This document shows positions 4,669 to 13,298 of a DNA stretch of 64,000 nt, piece after piece. Each line of letters begins with the position of its first letter. Within the stretch, counting starts at the first letter, position 1. The stretch lies in contig NZ_JAUQOP010000008.1 in NCBI RefSeq assembly GCF_030580855.1, positions 62,001 through 126,000 of the forward strand. The letters run 5' to 3'. Source of the stretch: Pseudomonas citrullilanati. Lineage in GTDB: Bacteria; Pseudomonadota; Gammaproteobacteria; Pseudomonadales; Pseudomonadaceae. The translations under genes and the position numbers were made by a program. The notes under the pieces are model-generated. The model was not told the origin of the DNA. It was given only the letters and a program-made list of their open reading frames with translations, and did no database searches.

Positions 4669-7047
4669 TCAATGAACCAGCGCTGTACGGAAATTCAGGG
4701 GCAGCGCCACCCAGGCCTCGAACGCCGCGGCGGTCAGCGGCCGGCTGATCAGGTAACCCTGGGCGGTATCGCAATGCCAACGTTCGAGCAGGCTCAGGCT
4801 GTGGGCGTATTCGACGCCCTCGGCCACCACCTTGAGCCCCAGGTTATGGCTCATTTCGATCGTCGAGCGGACAATCACTGCGTCTTCACTGGCCTCGTCC
4901 AGGTCGCGGACAAACGACTGGTCGATTTTCAACTCCTGCACCGGCAGCCGCTTGAGGTGCGCCAGGGAAGAATAGCCCGTGCCGAAGTCATCCACCGACA
5001 GGCTGATGCCGCAATCGCGCAACAGGTGAAGGTTCTTCAAGGCCCGCTCGGGCTCGCGCATGACCGCGCTTTCAGTGACCTCGAAAACCAATTGCTCGGC
5101 CGGCAGCCGGTGGGTGCGCAACAACGCCACGACCCGCTTGGGCAAGTCATCGCTGATGAGGTCTTCGGCGGAGATGTTCAACGACAGCTCCAGGCGCAGG
5201 CCACGGTCATTCCACTCCGAGAGCTGACGCATGCCCTCGTTGATCACCCACTGGGTCAGCGTCTGGATGCTTGCGGTGCGCTCCGCCAACGGGATGAACT
5301 CGCCGGGAGAGATCGGGCCCAGTTGCGGATGGTGCCAGCGCAACAGCGCTTCGGCCTGGCGGACATGCTGGTTGAGAAGGTTCAGCTTGGGTTGGTAATG
5401 CAAGAGCAGCTCGCCGTTGTCCGCCGCGTGGCGCAGGTCGCGAATCAAGGTGATCTGGCGCCGATGCGCCAAGTCACGCCCGTGCTGGTAGACCTGCAAA
5501 TGACCCGGCATCTGCGCCGCGTCTTTCATCGCGATCGAGGCGCGCTCCAGCAGGCTCTGGGCACTCTCTCCATCGGCCGGATAGGCCGCGATCCCGAGCC
5601 TGCAGTCCAGCGCCAGGTCATGTCCGTTGATGCGCTGGGGCTTGAGCAGGAACTGCTGCAACTGGTCGGCGACCGCCACCGCCGCATCACTGTCCATCCC
5701 ATCGAGCAGGAGCAGGAATTCCTCGGCGATCAGATGCGCCACGGTGTCACCCGGGCTCAACAGCGCCTGGATGCGTTGGCCGGTCTGGCGAAGCAACCGG
5801 TCGACGGTCTCGGGATCGACCGTTTCATTGATCGCGCGCAGGTTATCGAGGCCCATGAAGATCAGGGTCATCGGCCGTCTTGCCGCAATCGCGCTGCCCA
5901 GGCGCTCCATGGCCAGTGCCCGGTTGGGCAAATCGGTGACGGGGTCATGCAGGGCGTTGTGAGCCAATTGTTGCTCACGTTCGGCAATGCCCCTTTGCAT
6001 GGTGTTGACGGCGTTGGCCAGCAGGCCGAGCTCGTCCTCTCGTTGCAATATCACCGGGGTCTGGTAATCGCCCTGGCCGATGCGTTCCGCCGCCAAGGCC
6101 AGCGATTTCACCGGCCGCGACACCCCGCGCGCCAGGAGCAAGGCGCCGACCAGCGAGGCGATCAGCGCAACCAGGGTGATCGCCAGGATCTTTTCATCCA
6201 GCGGAGCGAAGGCCTGCATGGCCACGTCGAGGGGGCTTTGCAACAGGGCGATCACCTGCCCGTTGTATCCGCCCGAGCCGTCGGCCAGCGTCAGGAGCTG
6301 GCTGAGGTAATTGTGATTCAGGTGCTCCGTCAGCATGGCCTCGCCGCGCAGGGAGGATCCGAGCATCAGGCTGGAAATCGACCCGTGCAACGCGTCGGGT
6401 TGAGTGCTGACCAGTTCCCCCGGCTGCTGTTGATCGACGGCAAGAAACGAAACCTCCAGGTTGGTGAGCGAGCGCAGTTCATTGGCGAAGGCCTTGTCCA
6501 TGCTGAACCCCATCACCACCCTGGCGACGGGCAACGGCGTGAGCACGGGGGTTTCCACCAGCAAATGCGGCTTGCCCTGCAGCGGCACGATGACCATGGA
6601 CTGGCGTGCACGCTGGGCCAGGCGCAGCGCGCCGTCGTACTGGAACGGCGAGCCTGCGGGCATGTGGTCGAGGGTACTGGCGAGTACGGTGCCGTCCATG
6701 CTCAGCAGGATCATGTCGCTGGCGTTGATCCGCTTGCCGTGGTTGATCAGCACCGAGCGGATGGTGGCAGCGTCGCGGCTGGCCACCGCTTCGCGAAAGC
6801 CGAAGTCGGCCGCCAGTAACTGCACGCCATCGGCCAGGCGCCGTCCCTGCGCTTCCAGCAGCCGCTCGAAGATCCGCGTGCCGACGTCCAGTTGCCCGTC
6901 GGCCTGGCTGCGCACCGCCGTACTCGTCGCCGCGTTGACGCTGAAATACAGCAAGCCGATCACCAGCAGCGACAACAGGATCATCACTGCGGCGACTTGT
7001 GCCTGGAAACTATTGCGCAGTTTCACGGGCGGCTCGCTTGAAGGCAT
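4669..7047 (-). CDS. Membrane GGDEF-EAL protein, likely c-di-GMP phosphodiesterase
   Basis: Predicted to degrade cyclic di-GMP in response to a periplasmic cue. The 792-residue protein has a membrane segment at about 18-40, a large periplasmic sensor, a second membrane segment at about 283-305, HAMP, then GGDEF and EAL domains. The GGDEF signature is degenerate (IAEEF near residue 440), so cyclase activity is unlikely. The EAL domain retains EALLRW, FEVTES, DDFGTGYSSL, ELKIDQSF and VAEGVE, so it is probably an active phosphodiesterase. The ATG at 7047 was chosen over a GTG at 7059. It overlaps the cupredoxin gene by 38 bp, which fits an operon. Confidence 0.92.
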   Translation of the reverse strand: MPSSEPPVKLRNSFQAQVAAVMILLSLLVIGLLYFSVNAATSTAVRSQADGQLDVGTRIFERLLEAQGRRLADGVQLLAADFGFREAVASRDAATIRSVLINHGKRINASDMILLSMDGTVLASTLDHMPAGSPFQYDGALRLAQRARQSMVIVPLQGKPHLLVETPVLTPLPVARVVMGFSMDKAFANELRSLTNLEVSFLAVDQQQPGELVSTQPDALHGSISSLMLGSSLRGEAMLTEHLNHNYLSQLLTLADGSGGYNGQVIALLQSPLDVAMQAFAPLDEKILAITLVALIASLVGALLLARGVSRPVKSLALAAERIGQGDYQTPVILQREDELGLLANAVNTMQRGIAEREQQLAHNALHDPVTDLPNRALAMERLGSAIAARRPMTLIFMGLDNLRAINETVDPETVDRLLRQTGQRIQALLSPGDTVAHLIAEEFLLLLDGMDSDAAVAVADQLQQFLLKPQRINGHDLALDCRLGIAAYPADGESAQSLLERASIAMKDAAQMPGHLQVYQHGRDLAHRRQITLIRDLRHAADNGELLLHYQPKLNLLNQHVRQAEALLRWHHPQLGPISPGEFIPLAERTASIQTLTQWVINEGMRQLSEWNDRGLRLELSLNISAEDLISDDLPKRVVALLRTHRLPAEQLVFEVTESAVMREPERALKNLHLLRDCGISLSVDDFGTGYSSLAHLKRLPVQELKIDQSFVRDLDEASEDAVIVRSTIEMSHNLGLKVVAEGVEYAHSLSLLERWHCDTAQGYLISRPLTAAAFEAWVALPLNFRTALVH

Positions 7048-7687
7048 CGCCGAACGCACTGCTGGCGGGTGCGGTCTGCTCGGGTAACGGTTCCAGCGCC
7101 AGCGTGTAGGTGTGCTTGAGCCCGCTCGCGGGGATCTTCAACGAACCGCCATCGACCGCCAGCATGCCCTTGAGCTGGGGGTGCCACAGGGTCACCCGGT
7201 ATTCACCCATCGCCAGATCGCCCAGCGATACGCGGCCCTGCTCGTCACTGACGGCAAACAGGGGATCGTCGGTGACGAACACGTAGCCGAGCATCCGGTC
7301 GTGGATGTTGCAGCCCAGGACCACCACGCCCGGCTTGTCGAACAACACCGGTTCAGAGGGAGTGCCCTCGTACAGACGCAACTCGAAGCGTTTGGCCGGG
7401 GAAAACGAATAGACCTGATGGCGGATGTTGTCGCTATTGGGAAACTTGATCAGGCTGCCGGTGTGCACCGCCAGCACGTGGGGCGCAAACTGCTGGTTGC
7501 GCTGGTCCATGCTCGCGGCCAGTTTGGCCGGCGGTCCGCCGAGGGGGCCTTGCAAGGTAACGACGGCGTCGGTCAATGGCGTGCCCGAGGCCTCATGGAT
7601 CTCGACATCGAGCTTGGCGGCAGCCGCCCATCCGCCAGGGCAAGCGAACAGCAACAGCAGCACGAACAGGGAGTTTTTTGGGGACAT
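7010..7687 (-). CDS. Exported cupredoxin-like (methylamine-utilisation type) protein
   Basis: Predicted periplasmic copper protein of 225 residues. A signal peptide starts at the ATG at 7687 (MSPKNSLFVLLLLFACPGGW). The plastocyanin-like fold carries a plausible type-1 copper set: His in NIRHQVYSF, then Cys, His and Met in GCNIHDRMLGY. The remainder resembles carboxypeptidase-regulatory-like beta domains found in methylamine-utilisation annotated proteins. It heads the operon with the GGDEF/EAL, DUF3034 and truncated-globin genes, so it may supply a redox or copper-dependent signal to the sensor. That role is inference. Confidence 0.82.
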   Translation of the reverse strand: MSPKNSLFVLLLLFACPGGWAAAAKLDVEIHEASGTPLTDAVVTLQGPLGGPPAKLAASMDQRNQQFAPHVLAVHTGSLIKFPNSDNIRHQVYSFSPAKRFELRLYEGTPSEPVLFDKPGVVVLGCNIHDRMLGYVFVTDDPLFAVSDEQGRVSLGDLAMGEYRVTLWHPQLKGMLAVDGGSLKIPASGLKHTYTLALEPLPEQTAPASSAFGDAFKRAARETAQ

Positions 7688-7864
7688 GCCAATTCCACGG
7701 GAAAACGATCGGGCGATTGTCTGGGTGACAAGCCCCGGACGTCGGCACCGGCTGTTATGCACGAGGTACCTGCCAGGGTATCGACCGATTGGCGCAAACC
7801 TGAACAGGTCTTTCGCAAACGTCCCGGCTGCCGCGACACGCCCGTGGTGCGTTGGCCTGCGGCC

Positions 7865-9814
7865 CTAGCCAGGTTGGAAATCCAGGGCGCGGCGAACCTT
7901 TTCAAGCAGTTCGTTGACCTGGAAGGGCTTGACCAGCATGTCCATGCCGCTGCCCAGGAACACCTGGCGGTTGATCGCCGTCTCGGCATAGCCGGTCATG
8001 AACAGGATCGGCAAGTCTTTACGCCAGCTTCGCGCCGCATCCGCCAGCTCCCGGCCGCTCATGCGCGGCAGGCCGACGTCGGTCAGCAGCAAGTGAATCG
8101 TCGGATCGTTCTGCAGACGCTCCAGGGCGGTTTCGATGTCCGCCGCCTGGGTGCAGCGATAGCCCGCGTCCTCCAGCACTTCGGTCACGAACAGGCGCAC
8201 CGCCGGCATGTCTTCGACAATCAGCACATGCTCGCCGGAACCCTGTGCGTCCACCACCAGCGTCGCGGCACCCGTCTGCATCGGACCATTGCTGGCCGGC
8301 AGCATGATCGTCACTTCAGTCCCGCGCCGCAGCACGCTGCGGATGTGCGCATCGCCGCCGGACTGGCGGGCGAAACCGTAGATCATCGACAGACCCAGGC
8401 CGGTGCCCTGCCCCAGCGGCTTGGTGGTGAAGAACGGGTCGAAGACCTTGTCGATCACACTGTGCTCGATGCCGATGCCGTCGTCGCGCACCGACAACGC
8501 CACATACGGGCCATCGGCCAGGTTCGGATCGCCATGGGAATAGGCCGCATAGGTCTTGACCCAGATGTTGCCGCCATTGGGCAATGCGTCCCTGGCGTTG
8601 ATCACCAGGTTCAGCACCGCGCTTTCCAGCTGCACCGGATCGACCAGCGCAACGGCCGGCTTGGTGGTCAGTTCAAGCTTGAGGTTGATGCGTTCGCCAA
8701 TGGTGCGCACCAGCAATTCTTCCAGTGAGCGCGCCTGCTCGTTGATGTCCACCGGACGCGTATCGAGGGGCTGCTGGCGTGCGAAAGCCAGCAGGCGATG
8801 CGTGAGGGACGCCGCGCTCATCGCCGAACTCAAGGCCGCTTCGGCGTAGAACTGGACCTTGTCCGGGCGCGCATCGGCCATGCGTTTCTGGATCAATTCG
8901 AGGCTGGTAATGATGCCGGTCAACAGGTTGTTGAAGTCATGGGCGATGCCGCCGGTGAGCTTGCCCAGGGCGTCCATCTTCTGCACTTGCAGCAACTGCG
9001 TTTCGGCGCGCACCCGCTCGGCGACTTCCTTGGCCAGTTGCGTGGTGGTGTCGTCCAGCCGCGCCAGGTGGGAACGCTCGCGGTGGCGGTGCTCGGTGAC
9101 GTCCTCGATGAACACCAGGCTCAGCTGGGGCGTGCGGTACGGTGAAAGCTGCCACTCGGTTTCGCGAATCTCGCCCTGCACCCGCAGGTTCAAGGTGCCT
9201 TTCCAGCGCTCGCCGTCCACCAGCCGGCGGCGCAGCTCGTCGAGGATCGCATCCTGGCCGTCGTCGAAGCATTCGCTGAGGGTGTCCTCGGCGTGGTTGT
9301 CCTGGATCATCTGCGCGAAGGCATGATTGCACTCGTGCACTTTCAGTTGGGCATCGAGCACGGCGATCGGCGCCGAGACGTTGACGAAGATCTCGCGGAA
9401 CCGGGCCTCGCTCTCGCGCAGCGCGTTCTCGGTGTCGCGCACCCGCAGCAAGGTGCGCAGGGTCGCCAGCAGCACGTCCGGGTCCACCGGGTGGATCAGG
9501 TAGGCGTCGGCGCCGGCGTTGAGGCCGGTGATGATGTCGCCGGTCTGGATCGACGCGGCGGAGACATGGATCACCGGCAGCAGCGCGGTACGCGGGTCGG
9601 CGCGCAGGATGCGCACGATGTCGAAGCCGCTCATGTCCGGCAGGTTGACATCGAGGATGAGCGCATCCAGCGGCTCGCTGTCGATCTGCGCCAGGCCCTC
9701 GCTGCCGGTGCCGGCCTCCAGCACCTTGTAGCCATGGCGCTCCAGGCGCCGGCGCAAGGCGTAGCGGGTGGCAATGTTGTCGTCGACGATCAGTAGACGA
9801 GTGTCACGATTCAT
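7865..9814 (-). CDS. Hybrid histidine kinase REC-PAS-HisKA-HATPase-REC
   Basis: Soluble hybrid kinase of 649 residues. Order: N-terminal receiver (acceptor Asp55 in LILDVNLPDMSG), PAS-like domain, coiled region, HisKA with phosphorylated His292 in GGIAHDFNNLLTG, HATPase (NLVINARDA, DDGIGI, GTGLGLS) and a C-terminal receiver with Asp579 in LLLTDVGLPRMSG. No membrane segment is visible. It is the last gene of the stressosome operon and overlaps the preceding kinase by 11 bp. No DNA-binding output regulator is encoded beside it, so its phosphotransfer partner is elsewhere or the receivers act as protein switches. Confidence 0.92.
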   Translation of the reverse strand: MNRDTRLLIVDDNIATRYALRRRLERHGYKVLEAGTGSEGLAQIDSEPLDALILDVNLPDMSGFDIVRILRADPRTALLPVIHVSAASIQTGDIITGLNAGADAYLIHPVDPDVLLATLRTLLRVRDTENALRESEARFREIFVNVSAPIAVLDAQLKVHECNHAFAQMIQDNHAEDTLSECFDDGQDAILDELRRRLVDGERWKGTLNLRVQGEIRETEWQLSPYRTPQLSLVFIEDVTEHRHRERSHLARLDDTTTQLAKEVAERVRAETQLLQVQKMDALGKLTGGIAHDFNNLLTGIITSLELIQKRMADARPDKVQFYAEAALSSAMSAASLTHRLLAFARQQPLDTRPVDINEQARSLEELLVRTIGERINLKLELTTKPAVALVDPVQLESAVLNLVINARDALPNGGNIWVKTYAAYSHGDPNLADGPYVALSVRDDGIGIEHSVIDKVFDPFFTTKPLGQGTGLGLSMIYGFARQSGGDAHIRSVLRRGTEVTIMLPASNGPMQTGAATLVVDAQGSGEHVLIVEDMPAVRLFVTEVLEDAGYRCTQAADIETALERLQNDPTIHLLLTDVGLPRMSGRELADAARSWRKDLPILFMTGYAETAINRQVFLGSGMDMLVKPFQVNELLEKVRRALDFQPG

Positions 9815-10679
9815 CGGCGTTCTCCAGGGCGAGCGCCAGTGGAATGATCACGAAGAAGTTCGAACCGATCCCCGGGGTACTGTCCATCCCGACCTCGCCA
9901 CCGAGCAATTCGGCGAAGCGTTTGCACAACGACAGGCCGAGGCCGGTACCCCGCAGGCGTTTCTGCAACGGCGAGTCGACCTGGGAGAAGTCTTCGAACA
10001 AGGCACCGTGCAGCTCCGGCGCGATCCCGATGCCGGTGTCGCTGACGGCGAAGCGCACCCGATCCTGCCCCTCGAGACGCGCCGAGACCCGCACTTCACC
10101 ACGGGTGGTGAACTTCAGCGAGTTGGAAATGAAGTTGCGCAGGATCTGCGCGAGCTTCTTGTCGTCGGTGTACAGGCGCGGAAGGCCGACTGGTTCTTCG
10201 AAGATCAGGTCCACCGCCGACGCGTCGACGATGGGCCGGAACATGCCTCGCAAGGCCGAGAACAGGTCGAACATGTCGAACCACGCCGGGGAAATGCTGA
10301 TCCGCCCGGCTTCGATTTTCGCCAGGTCGAGCAAGTCATCGACCATGTCGCTGAGTTCGCGGGCGGCGCTGCTGACGAACGCCACCTGCTTGTGCTGCTC
10401 GAGGCTGAGGGGGCCGTCGAGTTCGTCGGCGAGCAAGCTGTTGATGCTCAGGATCGAGCCCAGCGGCGTGCGGAACTCGTGGCTCATGTACGACAGGAAG
10501 CGGCTTTTCAAGTCCGAGGCCTGGCGCAGTTGCTCGGCCTGGGTGTCGAGTTCGGCGTAGAGCGCCAGCACGCCCTGGTTGGTTTCATCGAGTTCCTCGC
10601 GCAAGGCGGCGGTCTCGCTTTGCAACTGGGCGATCAGCGCGGCCTGTTCGGCCGGGTTCAGGGTAGGCGACTCAGCCAT
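9804..10679 (-). CDS. Soluble sensor histidine kinase of the stressosome operon
   Basis: Histidine kinase of 291 residues with an N-terminal coiled coil (about 10-60), HisKA with His67 in YMSHEFRTPLG, and a HATPase domain (NFISNSLKF, DTGIGI, GTGLGLSL). It has no separate sensory or membrane domain, so its input must come from a partner protein. The upstream RsbX-like gene overlaps the ATG at 10679 by 8 bp and the downstream hybrid kinase overlaps by 11 bp. A role as the target of RsbT or of the phosphatase is inferred from context. Confidence 0.9.
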   Translation of the reverse strand: MAESPTLNPAEQAALIAQLQSETAALREELDETNQGVLALYAELDTQAEQLRQASDLKSRFLSYMSHEFRTPLGSILSINSLLADELDGPLSLEQHKQVAFVSSAARELSDMVDDLLDLAKIEAGRISISPAWFDMFDLFSALRGMFRPIVDASAVDLIFEEPVGLPRLYTDDKKLAQILRNFISNSLKFTTRGEVRVSARLEGQDRVRFAVSDTGIGIAPELHGALFEDFSQVDSPLQKRLRGTGLGLSLCKRFAELLGGEVGMDSTPGIGSNFFVIIPLALALENADES

Positions 10680-11688
10680 GGGCGGCCTCCAAGGCAACGA
10701 CCAGCACCGTCACATCGTCCCGTCCACGGCAGAAGTCACGATGCAGGACCGTGGCTATCACGGCGGGATGGCGGTGCACCAGGCCGGGGTAGTCTTGAAG
10801 ATTCCAACGGGACTGCAAACCGTCGCTGTACATGATCAATAGGTGTCCGTTTACGTGAGCATAGTCAAAGGGCTGGGCTTTGCGGTATTGGCCGCCGACG
10901 ATGCCCGGGTTCGACGCCAGGCCCCGCGACTTGTCCGCGGTGACCAGGGTGGCGCCAATATTGCCAACGCCGGTGAAGGTCAGGCCATCGCGCGGCGCAT
11001 TGAACTGGGCGATGGCCGCCGCGCCGCCGCGCGTGCCGATCATGTCGCGGTGCATGTCTTCCATCAACAGCACCGGCGTGGCGAAGGGGCCGCGGGCGAA
11101 TGTCCGCTCCCCCGCCTTGGCCGCGCGTTCGGCGTCCTCACCGTGGCCGAGGCCGTCGATCACCAGCGCGCTGACGCTGCTGCCGTTGTACGCCAGGTGC
11201 CAGGTGTCGCCACAGGCCGGATCATCGTTGAGCGAGTGCTGGCTGACGCCGTAGCGCAGGTCCGCCTGGCGGTTGCCGCGCGGGTACAGACGCGCCAGCA
11301 ACACCGCGCCACGGGCATCGGCGTAGACATCGAACACTTCGGCCTGGCGCGCCACGGCGCCAAGGCCGATACCCTGGGTACCCCCCGTGGAAAACCCATC
11401 GGTCAGGCAGGCATCCAGGTCAAAGCCCTGGGCGCGGTCCACCGCGAGCAGCTCGATGCCAAACCCGCCGGGACACGCAAGCACGCGCACATGGAGCTCG
11501 CCGCGGGTGGCGTGCTTGAGCACGTTGCTGGCCAGCTCGGTGGTGACCAGCGCCACACGTCCGGCATCGGTCTCATCGAAGCCGTGCAGCTCGGCGAGCC
11601 TTTGCGTGGTGCGCCGGGCATAGCCGATCTGGCTGATGTCTTCGATCAGCAGCACCTGGGTCAGCGACCCGGCGATCGTCATGTCCAT
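10672..11688 (-). CDS. RsbX-like PP2C phosphatase fused to RsbT-like ATPase domain
   Basis: Two-domain regulator of 338 residues. Residues 1-135 form an anti-sigma-type HATPase domain with an intact N-box (Glu51 and Asn55 in ELASN) and GTQGIGLG. Residues 145-335 form a SpoIIE/RsbX PP2C phosphatase with metal-binding Asp178 (VIDGLGHGE), Asp289 (MYSDGL) and Asp324/325 (RDDVTVLV). In Bacillus stressosomes RsbX dephosphorylates RsbR and RsbS, and the same reset role is inferred here. The N-terminal kinase-like domain is extra compared with classical RsbX. Overlaps rsbT by 10 bp. Confidence 0.88.
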   Translation of the reverse strand: MDMTIAGSLTQVLLIEDISQIGYARRTTQRLAELHGFDETDAGRVALVTTELASNVLKHATRGELHVRVLACPGGFGIELLAVDRAQGFDLDACLTDGFSTGGTQGIGLGAVARQAEVFDVYADARGAVLLARLYPRGNRQADLRYGVSQHSLNDDPACGDTWHLAYNGSSVSALVIDGLGHGEDAERAAKAGERTFARGPFATPVLLMEDMHRDMIGTRGGAAAIAQFNAPRDGLTFTGVGNIGATLVTADKSRGLASNPGIVGGQYRKAQPFDYAHVNGHLLIMYSDGLQSRWNLQDYPGLVHRHPAVIATVLHRDFCRGRDDVTVLVVALEAAHG

Positions 11689-12083
11689 CGGGTGATCGTG
11701 ATGCGGGTGCCCTTGCCAGGCTCGGTGTCGAGCTCGAACTCATCGACCAGGCGCTTGGCACCGGTCAGCCCCAGCCCCAGGCCACCGCCCGAGGTCCAGC
11801 CGTCGGTCATCGCCAGCTTGATGTCGGCAATGCCCGGCCCTTCGTCGCGAAAGACCAAGCGCAGGCCGACACGGCCGCCCTCGTCGAGGATCTCCCAGTC
11901 CATGTCGCCGCCACCGCCATAGACCATGGTATTGCGCGCCAGCTCGCTGACGGCGGTCACCAGTTTGGTCAGGTCGATCAGGCGCATGCCGCATTCGGTG
12001 GCCAGCTTGCGCGCCGTTTGCCGGGCGAGCACCACATCCTGCTCGATGTTGATCGGTTGAGTGCCGCTGCTGCGCACGGTCAT
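11679..12083 (-). CDS. rsbT: RsbT-like switch serine/threonine kinase
   Basis: GHKL-fold kinase of 134 residues. In characterised stressosomes RsbT phosphorylates RsbR and RsbS and is then released to activate a downstream target. The ATP-lid motifs are intact: ELARN (Glu47, Asn51), DEGPGI and GLGLGL. It overlaps rsbS by 4 bp (ATGA) and the RsbX-like gene by 10 bp, showing tight co-translation. The gene symbol rests on gene order and motif match. The released target is not RsbU, since no such gene is present. The downstream histidine kinases are candidates. Confidence 0.9.
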   Translation of the reverse strand: MTVRSSGTQPINIEQDVVLARQTARKLATECGMRLIDLTKLVTAVSELARNTMVYGGGGDMDWEILDEGGRVGLRLVFRDEGPGIADIKLAMTDGWTSGGGLGLGLTGAKRLVDEFELDTEPGKGTRITITRWT

Positions 12084-12442
12084 TGGTGGCGTACTCGTTC
12101 CTGCAGCAGTTTCATTCCGCGCTCGACGTTCAGCGCGGTGCTGACGCCGGGCAGCGTCAGGCCGAGCTCGACCAAGGTGATCGCCACCGCCGGTTGCATG
12201 CCGACCAGCATGGTTTCGGCGTCCATGATCTTCGACAGGCCGGAGATGGTCGCGATCATCCGGCCGATGAACGAATCGACCATGTCCAATGCGGAAATGT
12301 CGATCAACACCCCGCGCGCCGATGTCTTGCTGATGCGCTCGGACAGGTCGTCCTGCAGGGTCAGGGCCAGTTGGTCATGCATGTCGACCTGAATGGTGAC
12401 GAGCAGGAACTCGCCCATCTGTAGAATCGGGATACGTTCCAT
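12080..12442 (-). CDS. rsbS: RsbS-like STAS-domain antagonist
   Basis: Single STAS domain of 120 residues, the stressosome scaffold protein that holds RsbT. The acceptor region IDISALDMVDSFIGRM places Ser57 at the position equivalent to the phosphorylated Ser59 of Bacillus RsbS. Length is standard for the family. It lies 4 bp downstream of rsbR and overlaps rsbT by 4 bp. Assignment is firm because STAS proteins ending this way and followed directly by an RsbT kinase are typical of rsbRST modules. Confidence 0.92.
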   Translation of the reverse strand: MERIPILQMGEFLLVTIQVDMHDQLALTLQDDLSERISKTSARGVLIDISALDMVDSFIGRMIATISGLSKIMDAETMLVGMQPAVAITLVELGLTLPGVSTALNVERGMKLLQERVRHQ

Positions 12443-12446
12443 CGGC

Positions 12447-13298
12447 TCAGGCCGTCTTGCCGAGGCTGACGCCCAGGCGCGTCAGGGCCAGCTTGAGCGC
12501 ATCGGCCAGGTTGGCCTTGGTCACCACGCCTTGCAGGTCGAGGCCCAGGTGCACGATGGTCTGGGCGATTTGCGGGCGCACGCCGCTGATGATGCAGTCG
12601 GCGCCCATCAGGCGGATGGCGGTCACGGTTTTGAGCAGGTGCTGGGCCACCAGGGTGTCGACGGTCGGTACGCCGGTGATGTCGATGATGGCGATTTCCG
12701 AACCGGTGTCGACGATACGCTGCAGCAGCGATTCCATCACGACCTGGGTGCGTTGCGAATCGAGGGTGCCGATCATCGGCAGCGCCAGCACGCCGTCCCA
12801 CAGCTTGACGACCGGGGTGGACAGTTCCAGCAGTTCTTCCTGCTGACGCTTGATCACCGCCTCGCGGGATTTCTGGAAGGTGCGGATGGTGTGCAGGCCG
12901 AACGCGTCGAACAGCTCGGAGATCTCCCAGAGTTGTTCGGCGAGCAACGCCGGTTGCTCGCGGTAATGCGTTTGCAGCAGGGCAAACAGCGGCCCCTTGA
13001 GGGCGAAGATGAAACTGGCGGTTTGCTGGGAATCGTGTCCGAGCTGGGCGCGGCTGTGGGACAGTTTCTCCAGGAACTGGCGGGTGGACTCCCAGCCCGG
13101 CGCATTGATGTTGCTGCCGTTGTTGTTCTGCAGGCCGCTGATCACCAGTTGCAGGAATTCGCTGGTCTGTTGTTGCAGGTCCTGGTTCTTGAGGTTACGG
13201 GTCGCACCGCTGGTTTCCAACCCATTGGTCCATTCGCCCAGCAGCTGTGCCTGTTTGTCTTTGATCGCCTCGAGGGTGGTGTTCTGCAGTGCTGCCAT
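12447..13298 (-). CDS. rsbR: RsbR-like stressosome sensor co-antagonist
   Basis: Stressosome sensor of 283 residues: an N-terminal helical domain (about 1-150) of the RsbR_N globin-like type but without an obvious haem ligand, then a C-terminal STAS domain. The STAS part has DITGVPTVDTLVAQH and GVRPQIAQTIVHLG. Thr215 and Thr247 align with the RsbT target threonines of Bacillus RsbRA (Thr171 and Thr205), by memory of the family. The ATG at 13298 was preferred over a TTG at 13316 because GAGGAG lies 10 bases upstream. First gene of the six-gene operon. Confidence 0.92.
   Translation of the reverse strand: MAALQNTTLEAIKDKQAQLLGEWTNGLETSGATRNLKNQDLQQQTSEFLQLVISGLQNNNGSNINAPGWESTRQFLEKLSHSRAQLGHDSQQTASFIFALKGPLFALLQTHYREQPALLAEQLWEISELFDAFGLHTIRTFQKSREAVIKRQQEELLELSTPVVKLWDGVLALPMIGTLDSQRTQVVMESLLQRIVDTGSEIAIIDITGVPTVDTLVAQHLLKTVTAIRLMGADCIISGVRPQIAQTIVHLGLDLQGVVTKANLADALKLALTRLGVSLGKTA

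Follow-up and report, generated by a model that had tools for sequence, protein, structure and literature searches.

A Pseudomonas stressosome operon with a likely two-component output and a conserved kinase linker as the proposed contact site of RsbT

The 64,000-nucleotide stretch of the Pseudomonas citrullilanati genome analysed here (the window; assembly GCF_030580855.1, contig NZ_JAUQOP010000008.1, positions 62,001 to 126,000 of the forward strand) contains a stressosome operon of six minus-strand genes at 13298-7865, which overlap or are nearly adjacent. They encode RsbR, RsbS, RsbT, an RsbX-type phosphatase and two soluble histidine kinases, HK1 and HK2, as the initial annotation of this DNA had claimed; the acceptor residues that it named, RsbS Ser57 and RsbR Thr215 and Thr247, are likewise correct. 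The features are as follows, in window positions.

12447..13298, minus strand: rsbR, 283 aa; RsbRD_N sensor domain and STAS domain
12654-12656, minus strand: RsbR acceptor Thr215
12558-12560, minus strand: RsbR acceptor Thr247
12080..12442, minus strand: rsbS, 120 aa; STAS domain; acceptor Ser57 at 12272-12274
11679..12083, minus strand: rsbT, 134 aa; GHKL switch kinase
10672..11688, minus strand: T2-RsbX fusion, 338 aa; RsbT-like GHKL domain (T2) at ~17-135 and PP2C phosphatase domain at ~142-336
9804..10679, minus strand: HK1, 291 aa; coiled-coil linker, HisKA (H67) and HATPase
10545..10595, minus strand: conserved linker of HK1, residues 29-45, ELDETNQGVLALYAELD; proposed RsbT contact site
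7865..9814, minus strand: HK2, 649 aa; hybrid kinase, REC-PAS-HisKA-HATPase-REC

The start of HK1 was set at the ATG at 10679 because the listed homologues are 291 aa long, and hk1 and rsbX overlap by 8 bp. A promoter scan 5' of rsbR found nothing.

The predicted products of the first three genes are a complete RsbR-RsbS-RsbT set with its acceptor residues. RsbR matches the STAS domain with an E-value of 6e-14, both threonines being present, and solved RsbR chains align over residues 17-277; its N-terminal domain was assigned to RsbRD_N by Pfam. RsbS consists of a single STAS domain, with Ser57 inside the alignment to solved RsbS (E 2.5e-31). RsbT is a stand-alone GHKL kinase with an intact ATP site (N-box Asn51; G1 Asp80-Gly82-Gly84). 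Its Asp94 aligns with Asp92 of Bacillus subtilis RsbT, the residue that contacts the RsbU linker.

The RsbX-type phosphatase bears a second RsbT-like domain, overlooked in the initial annotation: an N-terminal HATPase_c_2 domain (T2) joined to PP2C, where Ala86 takes the place of the first G1-box glycine. Because the VIA table of the RsbX structure model extends over the PP2C half only, assignment of the T2 fold is based on sequence. In HK1, neither a sensor domain, nor a receiver, nor an RsbT-like domain of the kind fused to many of its relatives (T3; see below) was found. Pfam detected no HPt and no DNA-binding domain in HK2, and RsbU_N (PF08673) has no match in HK1, HK2 or the whole genome.

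The initial annotation had linked the stressosome to the kinases, and the co-location on which such a link depends holds across rsbRST neighbourhoods. The order R-S-T-X-HK1-HK2 is kept in 80 of 80 other named Pseudomonas loci fetched via RsbT, with X in two pieces in L046 and HK1 in L081; a further 22 loci, obtained by genome searching, did not extend far enough or were not scored for the kinases. Among 95 relatives, 33 carry rsbS, and HK1 was detected (E<=1e-60, at most 25 candidates scored per genome) in 32 of these 33 and in none of the 62 others. All 32 copies lie on the same contig as rsbS, within ~2.3 kb. The rsbS-bearing genome without HK1 at this cut-off, G023, encodes a T3-type kinase instead. 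Among the same-genus genomes (n=59, window included), 28 have the window-type HK1, 4 the fused type and 27 neither; the Pseudomonas genomes with a T3 kinase are G013, G023, G028 and G054, so that the genus holds both operon types. The whole six-gene operon is also borne by a 29-kb plasmid of Xanthomonas vasicola, pXVH29 (L104), typed as non-mobilizable.

Outputs were compared in a survey of 81 loci, window included, chosen with a preference for clear rsbS matches; the loci fetched per search were 9 of 22 from other genomes, 34 of 39, 10 of 32, 11 of 11, and 16 of 99 plasmid records. Near-duplicates (L103, L127, L147), loci of the same genome as the window (L161-L171) and L001-L102 were excluded before counting, and many of the loci counted are closely related, so that the counts do not represent independent events. 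Classes were assigned by script and amended by eye for L110 (fused T2), L128 (without a separate rsbT) and L194 (output missed by the script).

An output is visible beside a separate rsbT and a T2-RsbX fusion in 47 operons; the sequence of L132 stops too soon. Of these 47 outputs, 30 bear a fused third RsbT-like domain, T3. Twenty-eight of the fused outputs are kinases, two of which (L188 and L193) run into a contig end or match weakly over the kinase portion; the other two, from Streptomyces, are PP2C phosphatases. The outputs, with and without T3, share a linker situated before the kinase or phosphatase domain, which mostly conforms to the consensus [EDN]-T-N-[RQKA]-G-[VI]-x-A-L-[YH]-[AS]-E-[LIV], in its shorter form T-N-[RQK]-G-V-x-A-L-Y-x-E-L. 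This motif is present in 25 of the 30 T3 outputs and in 16 of the 17 outputs without T3, namely 15 kinases, including HK1 of the window, and a PAS-GGDEF-EAL protein (L152), in which the match is loose. The pattern is permissive, yet it matched no other reading frame of the surveyed loci.

None of the 47 T2-RsbX operons has an RsbU_N match. Outputs with RsbU_N were found in 10 operons with a single-domain RsbX, and all 10 lack the linker motif; nine of these calls were made by Pfam, with L150 falling under the curated cut-off and the other 8 exceeding it, and the tenth, L195, by a purpose-built model made from eight of the nine. Five carry an additional, free RsbT-like gene ahead of rsbX, and L158 carries one after the kinase. 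The hybrid kinases of L159, L181-L183 and L196 have neither RsbU_N nor the motif, and in the remaining loci the output or RsbX was undetected or the arrangement was odd. In L128, L174, L175, L179, L180, L184 and L185, no separate rsbT was detected, and RsbX carries the one RsbT-like domain that was found next to RsbS.

Thr33 of HK1 lies 34 residues before the phospho-accepting His67, and the same spacing was found in 119 of the best 120 T3 kinases listed, the remaining one having Met for Val. At E<=1e-3, 7989 database proteins match the T3-linker stretch, and the best 120 of these carry PF13581 together with kinase domains. Two unusual arrangements were noted: the output kinase of L113, on an Embleya plasmid, has the motif twice in tandem, 18 residues apart, and P0151 (1034 aa) combines, according to Pfam, a T3 domain, a kinase, a receiver and a SpoIIE phosphatase in one chain.

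The T-N-[RQ]-G of the linker is in register with T89-x-R91-G92 of B. subtilis RsbU. According to PMC12143880, R91 of the RsbU linker (T89-L90-R91-G92) contacts D92 of RsbT, and the linker substitutions T89A, G92E/R and Q94L suppress an RsbT-binding defect. The Asp92 equivalent is present in 14 of 17 RsbTs from operons without T3. The register match and the conserved aspartate are suggestive of a shared contact, short of proof.

In a tree of 128 RsbT-like domains, built from few columns and with many unresolved forks, the T3 domains form one clade (SH-aLRT 98), the T2 domains nearly do so (2 changes), and RsbT is separate from both. Of the free additional RsbT-like proteins, those of L115 and L116 are placed beside T2 (those of L117, L118 and L148 are not), an arrangement suggesting that T2-RsbX arose when two older genes became joined. 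The RsbTs of most T3-less operons nest among those of T3 operons, so that loss of T3 is the simplest reading: T3 was probably lost in the lineage of the window, where free RsbT would then work in trans. Every aligned RsbT and T2 has the N-box Asn, which 9 of 31 T3 domains (7 of 25 plus L188 and L189) have lost; catalysis is therefore seemingly not needed in T3.

The N-termini of Vibrio-type hybrid kinases (L159, L179, L181-L183 and L185, picked by eye) were compared with RsbT-like domains. Compared with the T3 profile, they gave P values of 1.4e-4 to 3.1e-4 and, in the same test, HHalign probabilities of 17-53%; against RsbT, their profile gave P values of 3e-4 to 2.6e-3, and against other controls 0.075 to 0.98. 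As single sequences, only L179 and L182 matched the T3 profile, and a database search from one such N-terminus returned itself and one further protein. That these N-termini are decayed T3 domains is a weak lead.

These observations lead us to read the operon as a stressosome with a likely two-component phosphorelay output, in which RsbT acts in trans on the HK1 linker; we put the probability of this reading at roughly 0.45. RsbT would phosphorylate RsbS on Ser57 and RsbR on Thr215 and Thr247 and then leave the core on stress, as in Bacillus, and T2 would carry the RsbX phosphatase to the STAS core for reset. Released RsbT would bind the HK1 linker and order its T-N-Q-G hinge into a coiled coil, in the way that RsbT of B. 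subtilis orders the RsbU linker (T89, R91, G92), and the bound RsbT would change the kinase state of HK1. From the domain content we infer that phosphate would pass from HK1 to the first receiver of HK2, and the last receiver of HK2 would pass it to a distant regulator, possibly via an HPt protein. Action of RsbT in trans is favoured because the RsbT-related T3 sits in cis on the linker in most of the surveyed relatives, because the genome has no RsbU_N match, and because T2 is present with or without T3.

Several observations weigh against this reading. The motif is missing from 5 of the 30 T3 outputs, and the output after T2-RsbX in L194 (5417-6847, minus strand), a coil with a GGDEF-like stretch and no T3, has only a degenerate linker. 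The likeness to RsbU comprises three positions and may be due to chance, and the window linker has Gln in place of the RsbU Arg. The predicted structure of HK1 is too poor for contacts to be read from it (mean pLDDT 57.9), and none of the operon genes encodes an output regulator. Asp94 does not discriminate RsbT from T2, which keeps the Asp in 41 of 41 domains. In Vibrio vulnificus, PMC9237108 reports no positive result for an interaction of RsbT with VvD1, a kinase of another class.

A residue tried as an indicator that RsbT acts in trans also weighs against the reading. Trp63 of the window RsbT is common to its RsbT clade and came out top when all columns were scanned; the position is aromatic in 15 of 15 T3-less operons of the first set. 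An aromatic residue occupies this position in 29 of 31 T3 domains (the degenerate L196 excluded) and in 1 of 30 RsbTs of T3 operons, and also in 15 of the 17 T3-less operons, that is, in one clade of 14 and in L152. The two others, L191 (Leu) and L194 (Val), belong to other lineages and were both fetched after the idea had formed; Trp63 was rejected as a general marker. A tree test of Trp63, run before L194 was counted as T3-less, had 2 to 4 independent contrasts and no power. The failure of this residue in L191 and L194 lowered our confidence in RsbT relative to T2.

Sequence evidence does not decide between RsbT and the RsbX-like protein; we favour RsbT and regard T2 as a serious rival. In this alternative, T2 of the RsbX-like protein would act on HK1 itself: once the stressosome is phosphorylated, T2-RsbX would move back and forth from the core to the linker of the kinase. 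Besides the failed marker, it is supported by the overlap of rsbX and hk1 and by the T2 domains themselves, all 41 of which retain the N-box Asn and the counterpart of Asp92, as well as by the distribution of the fusion, fused T2 going with T3 or linker outputs and single-domain RsbX with RsbU_N outputs. However, T2 occurs both with and without a T3-fused output and is hence not the replacement of T3, and the obvious task for it is delivery of the phosphatase to the STAS substrates; on balance, we consider action of T2 on HK1 unlikely. Of the proposal in the initial annotation that RsbT or the RsbX-like protein controls the kinases, the link of stressosome and kinases is supported, by co-location and by natural RsbT-like fusions to the HK1 orthologue, and for the actor RsbT is favoured, with the RsbX-like protein still a contender.

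Less probable again is that the stressosome and the kinases share only a promoter, with the kinases sensing elsewhere and RsbT targeting another protein. HK2 has a PAS domain of its own that could serve for sensing, and the genome holds other partner-switching phosphatases with receiver domains. Co-inheritance, the gene overlaps, the T3 fusions and a linker common to kinase and phosphatase outputs all argue for a functional connection instead, and the genome lacks an RsbU_N protein. Least probable, by a small step, is phosphorylation of HK1 or HK2 on Ser/Thr by RsbT or T2: Heinz et al. propose it for kinases without RsbU_N (PMC9237108) and the ATP-binding residues of RsbT are intact, but the N-box Asn is gone from those 9 T3 domains, the fused domain seemingly needing no catalysis, and B. 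subtilis RsbT activates RsbU by binding (PMC12143880).

Two sets of genes elsewhere in the genome were noted. On contig C12 (L169), genes for a STAS protein, a REC-PP2C-HATPase protein and an HPt-like protein lie side by side, a trio resembling hsbA-hsbR-hptB of P. aeruginosa; a relay from HK2 to this set is a guess. On contig C78, near 113358, a REC-PP2C gene is followed by a STAS gene, a pair resembling rssB and its antagonist. Next to the operon, a 250-aa open frame without a Pfam match that resembles a plastocyanin/methylamine-utilisation protein (7010-7762, minus strand) and a dCache-HAMP-GGDEF-EAL gene (4669-7059, minus strand) follow HK2 in the same direction, ~100 bp downstream. These two genes and the upstream LysR gene were considered as operon parts and rejected, as they adjoin the operon in 0 of 80 other loci (cut-offs of 50% identity and 70% coverage).

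The connection of stressosomes to kinases that the initial annotation put forward has been published. RSTX modules followed by HisKA/REC proteins were described by Heinz et al. 2022 (PMC9237108), coupling of stressosomes to downstream two-component or c-di-GMP proteins was proposed (PMC9237108, PMC10014275), and a two-component system lies downstream in the locus of V. vulnificus (PMC10014275). The window operon resembles these Gram-negative modules, such as V. vulnificus rsbRSTX-VvD1-VvD2 (PMC9237108, PMC10014275), in that R, S, T and X precede kinase/receiver genes and the operon has no RsbU. It differs from them in the fusion of RsbX to T2 (the phosphatases described in PMC9237108 are single-domain), in an RsbR N-terminus assigned to RsbRD_N by Pfam, and in the T-N-x-G-V linker of HK1. 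With the B. subtilis sigB stressosome (RsbRST-RsbU-RsbVW-SigB) it shares the acceptor residues of the RsbR/S/T set and an RsbX-type feedback phosphatase, whereas its genome has no RsbU_N match and its downstream operon genes are kinases. RsbU_N-bearing kinases and cyclases (PMC9237108, PMC12143880), including kinases adjoining stressosome genes mentioned in PMC12143880, also differ from HK1, which lacks RsbU_N, just as the RsbU_N outputs surveyed lack the HK1 motif (10 of 10). The T3 kinases, the HK1 orthologues of many relatives (for example, of Deinococcus radiodurans MP1, L109), have the same place in the operon, the same linker and the same distance to the H-box; unlike many of them, HK1 has no C-terminal receiver, and it also lacks T3. 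Pfam strings in databases show the T3-kinase architecture, and no description of RsbT-kinase fusions or of the linker was found in titles and abstract openings, most subscription papers lying outside the search.

A broader proposal is somewhat more tentative than the reading of the operon itself. These operons may represent a large, apparently undescribed class of stressosomes that uses the RsbT fold three times: as the RsbT switch, as T2 docking RsbX on the STAS core, and as T3 in the output kinase or phosphatase. The T-N-[RQ]-G-V linker would then be the receiver equivalent to the RsbU linker, used by stressosomes without RsbU; the window would be a stripped form in which free RsbT replaces T3, and the Vibrio-type N-termini may derive from T3 domains by decay.

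Many stressosome modules do not belong to the SigB pathway, and PMC9237108 leaves open how kinases and other outputs without RsbU_N receive the signal from RsbT. The common linker and the widespread RsbT-like fusions offer a defined target for mutagenesis and for an easy test of binding, in Pseudomonas and Deinococcus radiodurans alike.

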